A program made the translations under genes and the position numbers. A stretch of DNA of 42,781 bases from Nautiliaceae bacterium (GTDB lineage Bacteria; Campylobacterota; Campylobacteria; Campylobacterales; Nautiliaceae). Position 1 is the stretch's first letter. Each line of letters opens with the position of its first letter. The notes beneath the pieces are model-generated. The model was not told where the DNA came from. It ran no database searches and saw only the letters and a program-made list of their open reading frames with translations. The DNA lies in assembly GCA_027036005.1 (NCBI GenBank), contig JALVTJ010000016.1, forward strand, positions 1 to 42,781, given 5' to 3'. Of the stretch, positions 32,545-37,998 are shown piece after piece.

Positions 32545-32592
32545 TTACTTTTTGAAAGAAAAAAAAACAAAAATTTGACATTTTTATTTTTA

Positions 32593-32610
32593 TGGCACTT
32601 TTATGGCACT
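32593..32610. promoter_or_regulatory. GCAC direct repeat in the napA-modA intergenic region
   Basis: TGGCACTTTTATGGCACT: two TGGCAC units 11 bp apart, about 85 bp upstream of napA. Confidence 0.5.
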
Positions 32611-32672
32611 TTTTGTGAATAAATTGGTGAATGGGTATTTATATTTTTTGGTATTAAAAAAATTTAATTAAT

Positions 32673-32701
32673 TTGACATAAAAACGATTTTAATATATAA
32701 T
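32673..32701 (+). promoter_or_regulatory. consensus sigma-70 promoter for the mod operon leader
   Basis: TTGACA (32673-32678), 17-bp spacer, TATAAT (32696-32701). Confidence 0.85.
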
Positions 32702-32710
32702 TTTAAAAAA

Positions 32711-32858
32711 GGGTTTCGAGCTGTATTTCCTAAGGCTTTTGCTATGGATTGACAGCCGATAGGGTTTAAACGGAAACGTTTAGGCCTCCCGAGTTGGAAA
32801 GAAGCCCACTCCCTAATAAGGGTATTCCATCTCGGGTGCCCTTATTAGAGGAGAGGTT
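32711..32858 (+). promoter_or_regulatory. molybdenum-cofactor (Moco) riboswitch plus expression platform
   Basis: P1 GGGTTT/AAGCCC (32711-32716/32802-32807); GCTGT/ACAGC arm carrying CCTAAG...TATGG tetraloop receptor; TAAACG-GAAA-CGTTTA hairpin; conserved AGGG...GCCTCCCG...GGAAAG core; SD-sequestering hairpin CTCCCTAATAAGGG/CCCTTATTAGaGGAG; directly upstream of modA. Confidence 0.85.
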
Positions 32859-33575
32859 ATGAAAAAGTTTTTATTTTTGATTATTTCCGTAACGCTTTTT
32901 GCAAAGAGTCTTTATATTGCTTCTGCTGCTAATCTCACGTATGTAATGCCTGAAATAAAAAAAGCTTTTAATAAAAAATATCCAAATGTTAAAATAAATT
33001 TAGTTCTTTCGAGTAGCGGAAAATTAACTGCACAAATTTTAAGAGGTGCTCCTTATGATGTTTTTTTATCTGCTAATATGAAATATCCTTTAAAACTTTA
33101 TAAAGCAGGGATAGCAAAAATGCCTCCGAGAATATATGCAAGAGGGGCAATTTGTCTTTTTAGTTTGAAATATAAAGATATTTCTCTTAAAAATTTGGAT
33201 AAATTTAATATTATTGCAATATCCAAACCTAAAACGACTCCTTATGGAAAAGCGGCTATTGAAGCATTTAAAAATGCGGGAATTTATAAAAAAATAAAAT
33301 CAAAATTGGTTTTTGCAGAAACAATACCTGCTGTTTTTTCATATGTAAAAAGTTATGCGGATGTAGGGATAGTGGCGAAATCTACAATTTATTCAAAAAA
33401 CATTAAAAGTTTGGGAACGTTTTATTATAAAGAAATAAATCCACAATTATATCATCCTATAAATCAAGGTATAATTCTTTTATCCCAAAAAAAAGTCGCA
33501 AAAGAATTTTATAATTTTATGTTTAGTAAAAAAGTAAAAAATATATTAAAAAAATACGGATACGATACGATGTGA
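32859..33575 (+). CDS. modA: molybdate ABC transporter substrate-binding protein
   Basis: LYIASAANLTYVMPEIKKAFNKKYPNVKINLVLSSSGKLTAQILRGAPYDVFLSANMKYP. Confidence 0.95.
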   Translation: MKKFLFLIISVTLFAKSLYIASAANLTYVMPEIKKAFNKKYPNVKINLVLSSSGKLTAQILRGAPYDVFLSANMKYPLKLYKAGIAKMPPRIYARGAICLFSLKYKDISLKNLDKFNIIAISKPKTTPYGKAAIEAFKNAGIYKKIKSKLVFAETIPAVFSYVKSYADVGIVAKSTIYSKNIKSLGTFYYKEINPQLYHPINQGIILLSQKKVAKEFYNFMFSKKVKNILKKYGYDTM

Positions 33576-33660
33576 GATTGGTTATTAGTGTATTAGTTAT
33601 TTGCGCTAATATACAAATACACCAATATACCAATATACCAATACATCACTTTGGAGAATT
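33576..33660. repeat. dispersed AT-rich intergenic repeat, copy 1
   Basis: ATTGGTTATTAGTGTATTAGTTATTTGCGC..., nearly the reverse complement of a segment at 34733-34762; also tandem ACCAATAT units. Confidence 0.55.
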
Positions 33661-33664
33661 GAAA

Positions 33665-34039
33665 ATGGAAAATGAAATAACAGCGGTTTTAAAAAATATA
33701 ATTTCGATTAATAATCTTAATTTATTGGAATTTGAAAAAGAAAATCAAAAAATAAATGTTTTAATATTACAAATGAATATCGATTTGAAAATAGGAGAGA
33801 AGGCATTACTTTATATTAAGCCAACGAAACTTTTTTTGAGTAAGGAAAAATGTGAATTCGAAAATGTTTTAAAAGTAAAAGTAAAAAAAATAAAAAAAGG
33901 AAAAATTTTAGCAAATATAATATGTGAAATAACAAATGAAGAACTGGAAGTTTTAATGTTAAAAAATTTTGCTGATTTTGAAACGGAGGCGTATTTAATG
34001 TTTAAAGCAAGCGATATTTCTATAATAGGAAAAATATGA
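33665..34039 (+). CDS. TOBE/Mop-like molybdate-binding protein in mod operon
   Basis: ENEITAVLKNIISINNLNLLEFEKENQKINVLIL...KASDISIIGKI; TOBE-like. Start moved to 33665 because the upstream part of the ORF is the intergenic repeat. Confidence 0.75.
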   Translation: MENEITAVLKNIISINNLNLLEFEKENQKINVLILQMNIDLKIGEKALLYIKPTKLFLSKEKCEFENVLKVKVKKIKKGKILANIICEITNEELEVLMLKNFADFETEAYLMFKASDISIIGKI

Positions 34040-34719
34040 ATTTTGATTTTTATCCTTTTTATCTTTCGATTAAATTGGCTTTTATAGTAACGATTATTTT
34101 GTTAATTTTGGGAATTCCTTATGCTTGGTTTTTATCAACTACCAAATCCAAAATAAAACCTTTTTTGGAATCAATTACAGCCTTGCCTATTGTTTTACCG
34201 CCTTCCGTGCTGGGATTTTATCTGCTTTTTTTTCTCTCTCCTAATGCATACGTAGGAAAAATATTTTATGAATTATTTAATATAAAATTAGTTTTTTCTT
34301 TCGAAGGTTTGGTTGTAGCAAGTTCGATTTATTCTTTTCCTTTTATGATTCAACCAATTCAGGGCGGATTTGAAAGTATTAATAAAAACATAATAGAAGC
34401 TTCTTATTTAAGCGGTAAAGGTAAATTAATAACGCTTTTTAAAATAATACTACCAAATATTAAACCTTCTTTATTGACGGCAATTGTAATTACATTCGCA
34501 CATACCATAGGAGAATTTGGAGTTGTTTTGATGGTAGGAGGATCAATTCCTAAAAAAACAGAAGTCGCAAGCGTTGCAATTTACGATTATGTTGAAAATC
34601 TCGAATACCCAAAAGCTCATATTTACAGTGCAACTCTTTTGATTATCAGTTTTTTGGTTTTGCTTATTGTTTATTATATTAATCACCGAAAAAAAATAAA
34701 AAGTGGAATTGGTTATTAG
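34036..34719 (+). CDS. modB: molybdate ABC transporter permease
   Basis: ALPIVLPPSVLGFYLL, EASYLSGKGKLITLFKIILPNIKPSLLTAIVITFAHTIGEFGVVLMVGG. Confidence 0.94.
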   Translation: MNFDFYPFYLSIKLAFIVTIILLILGIPYAWFLSTTKSKIKPFLESITALPIVLPPSVLGFYLLFFLSPNAYVGKIFYELFNIKLVFSFEGLVVASSIYSFPFMIQPIQGGFESINKNIIEASYLSGKGKLITLFKIILPNIKPSLLTAIVITFAHTIGEFGVVLMVGGSIPKKTEVASVAIYDYVENLEYPKAHIYSATLLIISFLVLLIVYYINHRKKIKSGIGY

Positions 34720-34770
34720 TTATTGGTATTTTGGTGCAAATAACTAATATACTAATAACAAATAAACTAA
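34706..34770. repeat. dispersed AT-rich intergenic repeat, copy 2 (overlaps modB stop)
   Basis: AATTGGTTATTAGTTATTGGTATTTTGGTGCAAATAACTAATATACTAATAACAAAT: shares the GGTTATTAGT unit with copy 1 and contains its inverse. Confidence 0.55.
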
Positions 34771-35763
34771 ATGGAGAAAAAAATGAGTTATATACATATT
34801 AATGTAAGTAAAAATTTATTCGGTGCTCAAAAAAATATGAAACTTGAAATGGAATTTAATATCGAAAAAAATGATTTTTTGGCAATAAGCGGAGAGAGCG
34901 GGAGCGGTAAGACTACACTTTTAAGAATAATAGCGGGGCTTGAAGAAGCTAATGGAGAGATAAGGGTAGGAGATGAAATTTGGCTTAGTAATACCAATTT
35001 ACAAACCAGAGATATTGTTTCGTGTGGAAAAGATAAGGAAAAGACGAGGAAGAGAAAAGGAAAAGATAAAGATAAAGATTGTAATGTTTTTAATGGGCTT
35101 TGGTATAAAAACAGATTTTTACCTCCTCAAAAAAGAAAAATAGGGTTTGTTTTTCAGGATTTTGCACTTTTTCCAAATATGAATGTTTTAGAAAATCTTT
35201 TATATGTGCAAAAAGATAAAAAATTAGCGAATAAATTACTTGAAATGGTTGGAATGAAAAATTTAAGCGAAAGATATCCGAATACCCTAAGTGGAGGACA
35301 AAAACAAAGAATTGCTTTATGTAGAGCGTTAATGAGGAAACCTGAAATACTTCTTTTGGACGAGCCTTTTTCTGCTTTGGATGAAAAAAGAAAAGAAGAG
35401 TTGCAAAATGAAATTTATTTTTTTCATAAAGAATTTAATTTAACTACCATAATGGTTTCTCACTCATCTACGGAAATTTATAAACTTGCCGATAAAATGA
35501 TTGAAATAAAAAATGGTAAAATTATAAAAAAAGGAACTCCCAGAGAAATTTTACTAAAAACAAGAGGAAGTGAAAAATTTTCTCTTAAAGGAAGAATTAT
35601 TGATATAATAAATACTGATATTATAAATATTGCAGTTGTTTCTTTGGGGAGTCATATAGTTGAAATTGTCATTTCTCAGAAAGAAGCTGAAAAATTCAAA
35701 AAAAACGATGAAGTAATTATTTCAACAAAAGCTTTTCATCCGAATATAAAGGGAATAAAATGA
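34771..35763 (+). CDS. modC: molybdate ABC transporter ATP-binding protein with lysine-rich insertion
   Basis: SGESGSGKTTLLRIIAGLEEANG, LSGGQKQRIALCRALMRKPEILLLDEPFSALD, C-terminal TOBE-like domain. Confidence 0.92.
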   Translation: MEKKMSYIHINVSKNLFGAQKNMKLEMEFNIEKNDFLAISGESGSGKTTLLRIIAGLEEANGEIRVGDEIWLSNTNLQTRDIVSCGKDKEKTRKRKGKDKDKDCNVFNGLWYKNRFLPPQKRKIGFVFQDFALFPNMNVLENLLYVQKDKKLANKLLEMVGMKNLSERYPNTLSGGQKQRIALCRALMRKPEILLLDEPFSALDEKRKEELQNEIYFFHKEFNLTTIMVSHSSTEIYKLADKMIEIKNGKIIKKGTPREILLKTRGSEKFSLKGRIIDIINTDIINIAVVSLGSHIVEIVISQKEAEKFKKNDEVIISTKAFHPNIKGIK

Positions 35764-36407
35764 AAATATTACTTGTGGAAGATGATGAATTTATAGGAGA
35801 ATCAATTAAGGATTATTTAGAAATGCAGGGAAATAAGGTGGATTATTTTGTTTCTTCAAAAGAAGCATTTGAAAAAATATATCCTACTCATTACGATATT
35901 TTTTTACTTGATGTAAATATGCCCGATATTAATGGATTTGATTTTTATAAAGAAATGAAAAATTATGCGAATGTGCCTGTTATTTTTATTACGGCTTATT
36001 CGGATATAGAACATATTAAAAAAGCATTTGATTTGGGTGCTGCCGATTATATAAAAAAACCGTTTGAACTTGAAGAGCTTGAACTTAGGATTAAAAGACT
36101 TGTATTTAAAAAAACCAATGAAATAAAAATAACTCAAAATTATAAATTCGATCTGGAAAAACTAAGACTTTTTTATAAAGACGAAGAAGTGGATTTAACT
36201 CAGAATGAAAAATATTTTCTTGAACTTTTAATAAAAAATATCGGCAGTGTGGTTGATTTTGAAAAATTCAGAGATTATGTGTGGGATGGAAAGGATATAT
36301 GTGACAATACAATAAGAACACAGGTTAAAAAACTTAGAAAAAAGCTTAAAGAAAATTTTATTACAAACATAAGAGGTATTGGATATAAAATTGAAAAGAG
36401 CAAATGA
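35760..36407 (+). CDS. OmpR/PhoB-family response regulator
   Basis: MKILLVEDDEFIGESIKDYLEMQG..., DIFLLDVNMPDINGFD, C-terminal winged helix (IRTQVKKLRKKLKENFITNIRGIGYKIE). Confidence 0.93.
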   Translation: MKILLVEDDEFIGESIKDYLEMQGNKVDYFVSSKEAFEKIYPTHYDIFLLDVNMPDINGFDFYKEMKNYANVPVIFITAYSDIEHIKKAFDLGAADYIKKPFELEELELRIKRLVFKKTNEIKITQNYKFDLEKLRLFYKDEEVDLTQNEKYFLELLIKNIGSVVDFEKFRDYVWDGKDICDNTIRTQVKKLRKKLKENFITNIRGIGYKIEKSK

Positions 36408-37998
36408 TTTTAAAATAGATTTGATTTTGGCTTTTTCGCTTTTCGGATTTTTGATTATAATTGTTACAACATATGTTTCAATATATATTTTTAACAAAAT
36501 CGCTACTCAGGAATTTCACGATAAAATAAAACTAATTTCATCAAATATTTACAGAGAATATAATTCAAAAGAAAATACAATTAAGCTAACAACGGATGCA
36601 ATTATTAAAAATGATATTTTTAATTCTACTTTCGAGCCTAATATTAATGTTATAAAATCTATTTTCAAAACAATGCTTTATGCGAATAATGATCTTAAAG
36701 AGATAAATTATTTTAATTACGAAGGCAAAAATATTTTATCTTGTTATAAATTAAATTCCAATGTTTTTTGCGACAAATCTTTTAAAACATTTAACGTAAC
36801 CAATTTTAAAAAAAACAATCAAATTTTAATAAATAGGAAATTTAAAAACAATGCGATTGAATTTGATGCTGCGGCTCCTCTTAAAATAGGAACAATTCCG
36901 GGATTTATAGAAGTTAAGGCTTTAATTAAAAATATTTTTAAGAAAAATGATATATATCATGTGATTTTCATTGATAATAAAGGAGATGTTTTATATTCTA
37001 ATATATATAAAGAAAAAAATTTAAACGATATATTTAATTATCTTTTAAATAAACAGATTTTGAATATGAAAAACGGGTTTGTAAGCGATGAAATTTATGT
37101 GAAAAGCATTGCTCCGAATATGAAAATAATATTTATTCAAAATAAAAAAATTATAGATAAAACCAATGAAATATCAAAAAAAATAACAATTATAATGATT
37201 GTTATTTCTATTTTTTTGGCTATTCCTTTGGGTGTATTTTTTTCAAAACCTCTTTATAATTTTTATCAAATGTTGGATTTGAAAGTTCAAGAAGAGATAG
37301 AAAAAAGAAGACAAAAAGAGCAGATACTTTTTCATCAAAGCAAACTTGCCGCACTTGGAGAAATGTTAGGAAATATAGCACATCAATGGAGACATCCTAT
37401 TACAAGACTTTCTCTTCTTATTCAAAATTTCGATCTTGCTTATAAAAAAGGCAAATTAACACCCGAATTTATCGAAAAATTCAAACAGAACGCTTTAATG
37501 CAGATTAATTATATGTCCGAAACGATAGACGATTTTAGCAATTTTTTTAAAAAAGACACCGAAAAAGTCGAATTTTGCCCTTATGAAGTTATCAACGATG
37601 CTTTGAAACTAATTGAAGGTAGAATAAAAAATAACGGTATTAACGTGGATTTGAAAGTAATTTCAAAAAAACCTCTTTATGGATATAAAAGTGAATTTTC
37701 TCAGGTGATACTTAATATTTTGAATAATGCTATTGATGTATTAAAAAATAAAAATTTGACTGAAAAAAATATTTTTATCAGAATTTATGAAAATAAAATT
37801 GAAATAGAAGATAACGGAGGCGGAGTTAAAGAAGAAATTAAAGATAAAATTTTCGAACCTTATTTTACTACAAAATTTCAATCTCAGGGGACGGGAATAG
37901 GACTTTATATGAGTAAAGTGATAATTACACAACATTTTAGCGGAAAACTTTATTTTTATAATTCTAATAAAGGGGCTGTTTTTGTTATTGAAATATAA
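36379..37998 (+). CDS. membrane sensor histidine kinase
   Basis: Two TMs flanking a sensor domain; LAALGEMLGNIAHQWRHPITRLSL; N, G1 and G2 boxes (NILNNAIDVL, IEDNGGGV, GTGIGLYMSKVI). Confidence 0.92.
   Translation: MDIKLKRANDFKIDLILAFSLFGFLIIIVTTYVSIYIFNKIATQEFHDKIKLISSNIYREYNSKENTIKLTTDAIIKNDIFNSTFEPNINVIKSIFKTMLYANNDLKEINYFNYEGKNILSCYKLNSNVFCDKSFKTFNVTNFKKNNQILINRKFKNNAIEFDAAAPLKIGTIPGFIEVKALIKNIFKKNDIYHVIFIDNKGDVLYSNIYKEKNLNDIFNYLLNKQILNMKNGFVSDEIYVKSIAPNMKIIFIQNKKIIDKTNEISKKITIIMIVISIFLAIPLGVFFSKPLYNFYQMLDLKVQEEIEKRRQKEQILFHQSKLAALGEMLGNIAHQWRHPITRLSLLIQNFDLAYKKGKLTPEFIEKFKQNALMQINYMSETIDDFSNFFKKDTEKVEFCPYEVINDALKLIEGRIKNNGINVDLKVISKKPLYGYKSEFSQVILNILNNAIDVLKNKNLTEKNIFIRIYENKIEIEDNGGGVKEEIKDKIFEPYFTTKFQSQGTGIGLYMSKVIITQHFSGKLYFYNSNKGAVFVIEI

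Follow-up and report, generated by a model that had tools for sequence, protein, structure and literature searches.

A P3-lacking molybdenum/tungsten riboswitch ahead of modABC in one genus of Nautiliaceae, predicted to act as a translational OFF switch

Introduction

How does a Nautiliaceae bacterium adjust molybdate uptake to its cofactor supply, and which metal cofactor would be read? The question is raised by the window, here the whole analysed stretch of 42,781 nucleotides (GenBank assembly GCA_027036005.1, contig JALVTJ010000016.1), in which a structured leader precedes modA. A gene for the molybdoenzyme NapA lies opposite modA, and this divergent napA-modA pair is found in the modA-bearing genomes. 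The transport genes are as follows.

32859..33575, + strand: modA, molybdate-binding protein, the first regulated gene (TIGR01256, 161.3 bits, cut-off 62.5)
33572..35763, + strand: remaining transport operon
33665-34039, + strand: TOBE-like open reading frame, with a weak TOBE match
34036-34719, + strand: modB (TIGR02141, above cut-off)
34771-35763, + strand: modC-like ATPase, best ModC model below cut-off

A reading of the letters alone had proposed that the leader is a Moco-type riboswitch with a translational switch. We place a probability of about 0.77 on a translational OFF switch, in which a P3-lacking member of RF01055 at the 5' end of the modABC transcript responds to Moco and/or the tungsten cofactor. 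None of the papers searched linked this riboswitch to Campylobacter or Epsilonproteobacteria, and the 2008 list of carriers of the class names other groups (PMC2408646).

Results

The aptamer and its promoter

The Rfam covariance-model search of the window matched RF01055, currently named the molybdenum/tungsten riboswitch aptamer, at 32702-32820 with 74.5 bits (E 2.5e-16, gathering score 36), and this was the sole RNA family above threshold.

32673..32701, + strand: sigma-70-type promoter TTGACA-17-TATAAT, 12 of 12 consensus positions
32702..32820, + strand: RF01055 aptamer, P3-lacking form (model positions 1-135, P3 positions deleted)
32711..32716, + strand: P1 5' strand GGGTTT, pairing with 32802-32807
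32721..32755, + strand: P2 arm with the 11-nt GAAA-tetraloop receptor, CCTAAG 32729-32734 and TATGG 32743-32747
32756..32760, + strand: CCGAT linker in place of P3, from the Rfam alignment
32761-32764, 32785-32790 and 32796-32801, + strand: core elements AGGG, CCTCCC and GGAAAG, from the sequence
32767..32782, + strand: P4 hairpin, stem 32767-32772/32777-32782 with GAAA loop 32773-32776
32802..32807, + strand: P1 3' strand AAGCCC, pairing with 32711-32716

The promoter ends 10 bases before P1, and transcription should begin around 32708, on the 5' edge of P1. This would make the aptamer the first element of the modABC transcript, and the other modA copies of the genus have similar promoters.

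Ten copies from the genus were compared. Their aptamer helices were 93.2% paired, with 11 of 24 pairs covarying and 27 double-change cells against a shuffle mean of 8.9 (0 of 500 shuffles), although the copies are related and the changes are not all independent. Shifted registers of the same helices gave only 32-54% pairing. P1 was paired in 100% of cells and included a G-C to A-U exchange, P2 showed double changes at six of its ten pairs, and three of the six P4 pairs covaried. The core, the receptor and the GAAA loop were invariant among these covarying helices, the loop on P4 and the receptor CCUAAG...UAYGG each occurring in 10/10 copies. The sequence-only reading fared well at this level: its class assignment received the significant Rfam match, its helices were placed at exact coordinates, the stems covary as it had proposed to check, and both halves of its tetraloop/receptor contact, which is already described for the class (PMC2408646), are present. 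The window RNA is a lineage-restricted addition to a known class.

The missing stem P3

The likeness to the E. coli moaA leader that had also been claimed holds for the core and fails at P3, which is present in E. coli and absent here. In the Rfam alignment the P3 model positions are deleted and P2 closes into GCC-GAT-AGGG, an absence common to all ten genus copies. The P3 stem that marks the Moco subtype was not found, and the RNA has the form of the P3-lacking subtype. Regulski et al. (2008) reported that P3 is missing from 58 of 176 examples and that tungsten-cofactor genes occur in 17 of the 19 organisms whose RNAs lack it, a form accordingly proposed to sense the tungsten cofactor; deletion of P3 from the E. 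coli RNA merely broke function (PMC2408646).

We scanned a named genome collection with a P3-lacking core and counted only the 59 hits in which P2 closes directly onto the core, as the unfiltered scan consisted partly of P3-containing RNAs caught by chance. The GAT linker of the window was the commonest in this set (27/59). The first downstream genes (n=52) included TupA (13), MoaA (4), the AOR N-terminal domain (3) and WtpB (2), with a TonB-dependent receptor barrel in one case. The ModA family was not among the 25 commonest matches listed for these 52 genes, which makes modA an unusual target for the P3-lacking form.

Two mutually exclusive helices around the Shine-Dalgarno sequence

Downstream of the aptamer, the sequence-only reading had named a hairpin that masks the Shine-Dalgarno (SD) sequence and a competing anti-aptamer stem.

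32788..32799, + strand: P5/core strand CCCGAGTTGGAA, 5' arm of the anti-aptamer helix, covarying with 32825-32836
32809..32822, + strand: anti-SD arm CTCCCTAATAAGGG, from sequence and the arm-swap test
32825..32836, + strand: anti-aptamer 3' arm TTCCATCTCGGG, pairing with 32788-32799 with one T.T mismatch
32839..32853, + strand: SD-side arm CCCTTATTAGAGGAG, which includes the Shine-Dalgarno and pairs with 32809-32822 with one bulged A
32709..32714, + strand: AAGGGT, the ON-state alternative for the P1 5' strand, pairing with GCCCTT 32838-32843 in constrained folds

The SD hairpin was 77% paired on the MAFFT alignment and a one-column shift scored equally; this pair count was misregistered and was not used. 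Because MAFFT registers the hairpin poorly, arms were tested by swapping them between copies, using hand-picked arms and permutations in which kinship among the genus copies remains. Native anti-SD/SD pairs averaged -19.9 kcal/mol versus -12.5 kcal/mol for crossed pairs, and none of 20,000 permutations was as good. The anti-aptamer arms gave -17.0 versus -13.4 kcal/mol, with 2 of 20,000 permutations as good. When one representative was kept per group, the native order ranked 1/720 for anti-SD/SD and 4/720 for the anti-aptamer helix. The anti-aptamer pairing was also 93.6% paired, with a covariation score of 0.208 versus 0.142 (0/500 shuffles) and compensating changes such as GAG/CTC to GGG/CCC and CCC/GGG to CCT/AGG. 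Both stems named beforehand thus stand.

The two helices are incompatible, as each has an arm within the loop of the other and the connectors are two bases long; the anti-aptamer helix additionally crosses P1. Arm swaps, pair counts and truncation folds agree on conserved, mutually exclusive pairings around the SD, and the two-state translational platform recurs with compensating changes in 10/10 copies. In forced ON folds the AAGGGT/GCCCTT pairing appeared in eight of the nine copies folded; this alternative partner for P1 had been overlooked in the sequence-only reading.

Folding order and the proposed switch

With the window copy (L002), the SD was unpaired at 0.20 when P1 was forced and at 0.97 when the anti-aptamer helix was forced. 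Ligand-free truncated transcripts were then folded at 37 C. In all ten copies P1 stood at 0.86-1.00 while only the aptamer was made; once the anti-aptamer arm had emerged (32836 made), and before the SD arm, P1 fell to 0.00 and the anti-aptamer helix reached 0.95-1.00. The full-length equilibrium without ligand favoured the P1 (OFF) fold in seven of the ten copies (0.97 in the window), or in eight if L008 (0.76) is included. A purely thermodynamic switch is therefore not predicted and a kinetic step is essential, with the ON state as the kinetic product. Shuffled platforms, too, lost P1 midway, 54, 119 and 196 times per 300 trials (18-65%). Single-sequence folding was for this reason rejected as proof, and the weight rests on covariation.

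Class, helices, covariation and folding order are computed results; the gene-OFF logic that joins them is well supported, and we infer the direction of control, the ligand and the kinetics. With cofactor bound, the folded P1, P2, P4 and P5 would hold the core shut, leaving 32809-32822 free to pair with 32839-32853, mask the Shine-Dalgarno and lower uptake. Without cofactor, TTCCATCTCGGG would be made before the SD arm, invade CCCGAGTTGGAA and break P1, and the freed P1 5' strand could then capture CCC(TT) on the SD side. The Shine-Dalgarno would remain open and ModABC would be made. Given the order in which the arms lie on the RNA, the choice would be made during transcription. This is the logic that had been predicted from the letters, and forced folds and covariation support it; its proposed OFF direction agrees with that of the E. 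coli moaA RNA (PMC2408646).

Two other platforms were weighed against this translational switch. The stable hairpin just 5' of the gene could suggest a riboswitch that terminates transcription, but the terminator search detected no terminator-like site at the leader, and the 3' arm of the hairpin is the SD itself with no T run after it. We rejected this platform and regard it as scarcely credible. The masked SD favoured by the ligand-free, full-length folds of most copies would also fit a plain equilibrium hairpin behind a degenerate relic aptamer, giving constitutively low translation. A relic is highly improbable, however, for an RNA that keeps its core, receptor and GAAA loop unchanged in ten copies, whose helices covary, and whose anti-aptamer arm covaries with the core.

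Distribution in the genus and relation to ModE

The riboswitch was found in 8/8 genomes of the genus as ten copies, two of them in the window's genome. All ten lack P3 and lie before ModA-type transport genes, the targets being modABC in eight genomes and a second transport operon in two; in one copy a barrel-like gene comes first. Outside the genus, 0/52 genomes in the search of relatives and 0/395 in a phylum-wide draw carried the riboswitch, in draws that overlap and under stricter filters by which weak matches may be missed. The restriction to one genus had gone unnoticed in the sequence-only reading. Sister genera have a modA orthologue without the riboswitch, and the napA-modA gap, approximated from matched protein starts, is 65-92 bases in sister genus g2 versus 225-460 in the riboswitch genus. 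Gain by the genus is the simplest reading, and loss elsewhere is also possible.

ModE was found above cut-off in two sister genera, g3 and g5. Upstream of modA, g5 and one g3 genome carry inverted repeats of the form CGCTATAT...ATATAACG (L225, L226, L227, L229), which may resemble the ModE box. Among the eight genomes of the riboswitch genus, some of them incomplete, neither ModE above cut-off nor this repeat at modA was found. The only clear ModE match in the genus (54.8 bits) is a 243-residue divergent ModE-domain protein beside the wtp genes of the window's genome (G000), and G003 has one marginal match. That the riboswitch cleanly replaced ModE is only suggested, because g2 lacks both ModE above cut-off and the riboswitch.

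Several other features were observed around the operon. Between napA and modA, direct repeats TATGGCACTTT lie at window 32592-32615 with 11-base spacing, and these repeats occur in most genus members and in g2. The spacing suggests that an OmpR-type regulator could bind them. In G002 (L007), a G/A-rich repetitive stretch upstream of the modA switch replaces the GGCAC repeats. A response regulator and a histidine kinase follow modC directly (window 35760-37998), an arrangement conserved in G001 and G006, and this pair possibly reads the GGCAC repeats. In the ModC-like ATPase (34771-35763), the Walker A region is followed by a lysine-rich insertion of ~30 residues.

The second copy and a barrel-like protein

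The second P3-lacking copy in the window's genome (L130:3780-6577, G000:C10) had been missed by the sequence-only reading. It is followed by a 436-residue protein and then by a ModA-like protein and a ModB-like permease that both score below cut-off (TIGR01256 at 43.1 bits for the former, 160.7 bits for the latter), and no ATPase gene adjoins the ModA-like/ModB-like pair. In G001 a second switch lies directly before a ModA-like gene. The 436-residue protein begins with a signal-like stretch and ends in phenylalanine; Pfam, NCBIfam and PDB sequence searches gave no match, and weak relatives occur in few genomes. It is a putative outer-membrane barrel. It may not be the only outer-membrane protein under this riboswitch class, since 1/52 of the surveyed first genes matches a TonB-dependent receptor barrel. 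To our knowledge no dedicated outer-membrane channel is known for molybdate or tungstate, and the barrel-like gene is a candidate for one.

Moco or tungsten cofactor

The earlier assignment of a Moco-type riboswitch was right as to class; Moco as its ligand is not secured, as the P3-lacking form has been linked to the tungsten cofactor. The ligand may be Moco, the tungsten cofactor or both. The window's genome encodes WtpA (379.5 bits, cut-off 355) and a WtpC-like/WtpB-like pair next to a formate dehydrogenase; the genes run formate dehydrogenase, wtpA, wtpC-like, wtpB-like and the divergent ModE-domain protein (L178, G000:C78:5000-14667). The large subunit of this formate dehydrogenase is interrupted by one in-frame TGA, which is probably a selenocysteine codon. 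In the other seven genomes of the genus, 70-96% complete, no WtpA-type binding protein, no TupB above background and no AOR were found. Most of these seven have formate dehydrogenase-like enzymes, which could use either metal. In G006 (80% complete), no molybdopterin enzyme other than NapA was found, apart from a 554-residue partial match.

Selective sensing of the tungsten cofactor, with ModABC importing tungstate as well as molybdate, is a reading to which we give slightly less than even odds. It is favoured by the loss of P3 in every copy, by the published association of such RNAs with tungsten markers (PMC2408646), by the TupA, WtpB and AOR genes among the surveyed targets, and by the WtpA and WtpC/WtpB-like genes beside the TGA-interrupted formate dehydrogenase. 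Seven genomes that keep a P3-lacking RNA on modA without WtpA-type protein, TupB or AOR speak against it, as does the position of modA opposite the gene of a molybdoenzyme, although these genomes are incomplete and their formate dehydrogenase-like enzymes could use tungsten. The same seven genomes, the control of modABC itself, the divergent napA-modA pair and the enzyme content of G006 all favour sensing of Moco or of both cofactors, with P3 loss not setting the metal in this lineage. That reading, which we rate as plausible at not quite one chance in two, has to contend with the published P3 correlation (PMC2408646), the tupA-rich survey and the tungstate genes of the window's genome.

A broader account is doubtful and offered tentatively: the genus would have acquired a P3-lacking switch that replaced ModE, controls both molybdate-type ABC systems and a dedicated outer-membrane molybdate/tungstate channel, and, in the majority of its members, reads Moco and not the tungsten cofactor, breaking the P3 rule.

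Discussion

One genus seems to shut off translation of metal uptake when cofactor is plentiful. Neither the class nor its tertiary contact nor its two forms are new. The present analysis extends the class to a lineage for which no report was found in the literature searched, and in which it is confined to one genus, and adds the platform, a second target and a question of specificity. In seven of its genomes a P3-lacking RNA precedes modABC next to the nitrate reductase gene, and the usual tungsten genes were not found there; the genus therefore offers a natural test of whether P3 loss sets metal specificity.

The E. coli moaA Moco riboswitch (PMC2408646) shares with the window RNA the core, P1, P2, P4 and P5, the GAAA loop and its receptor, and its repression by cofactor is likewise expected here. 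The E. coli RNA has P3, places the ribosome binding site within P1 and controls cofactor synthesis, whereas the window RNA lacks P3, carries a separate anti-SD hairpin and anti-aptamer helix after the aptamer, and precedes transport genes. The P3-less architecture and the GCCGATAGGG linker are those of the 'Tuco'/'Wco' riboswitches (PMC2408646; tandem forms, PMC9481103), although in other genomes the gene that follows is often tupA, a wtp gene, AOR or a moa gene, and not a modA next to napA. The closest precedent in print comes from Pelobacter carbinolicus, where a P3-lacking RNA on a molybdate transporter was named as an exception (PMC2408646). ModE performs the identical task at mod operons, shutting molybdate uptake when supply suffices, but it does so as a DNA-binding protein, where the window would use an RNA.
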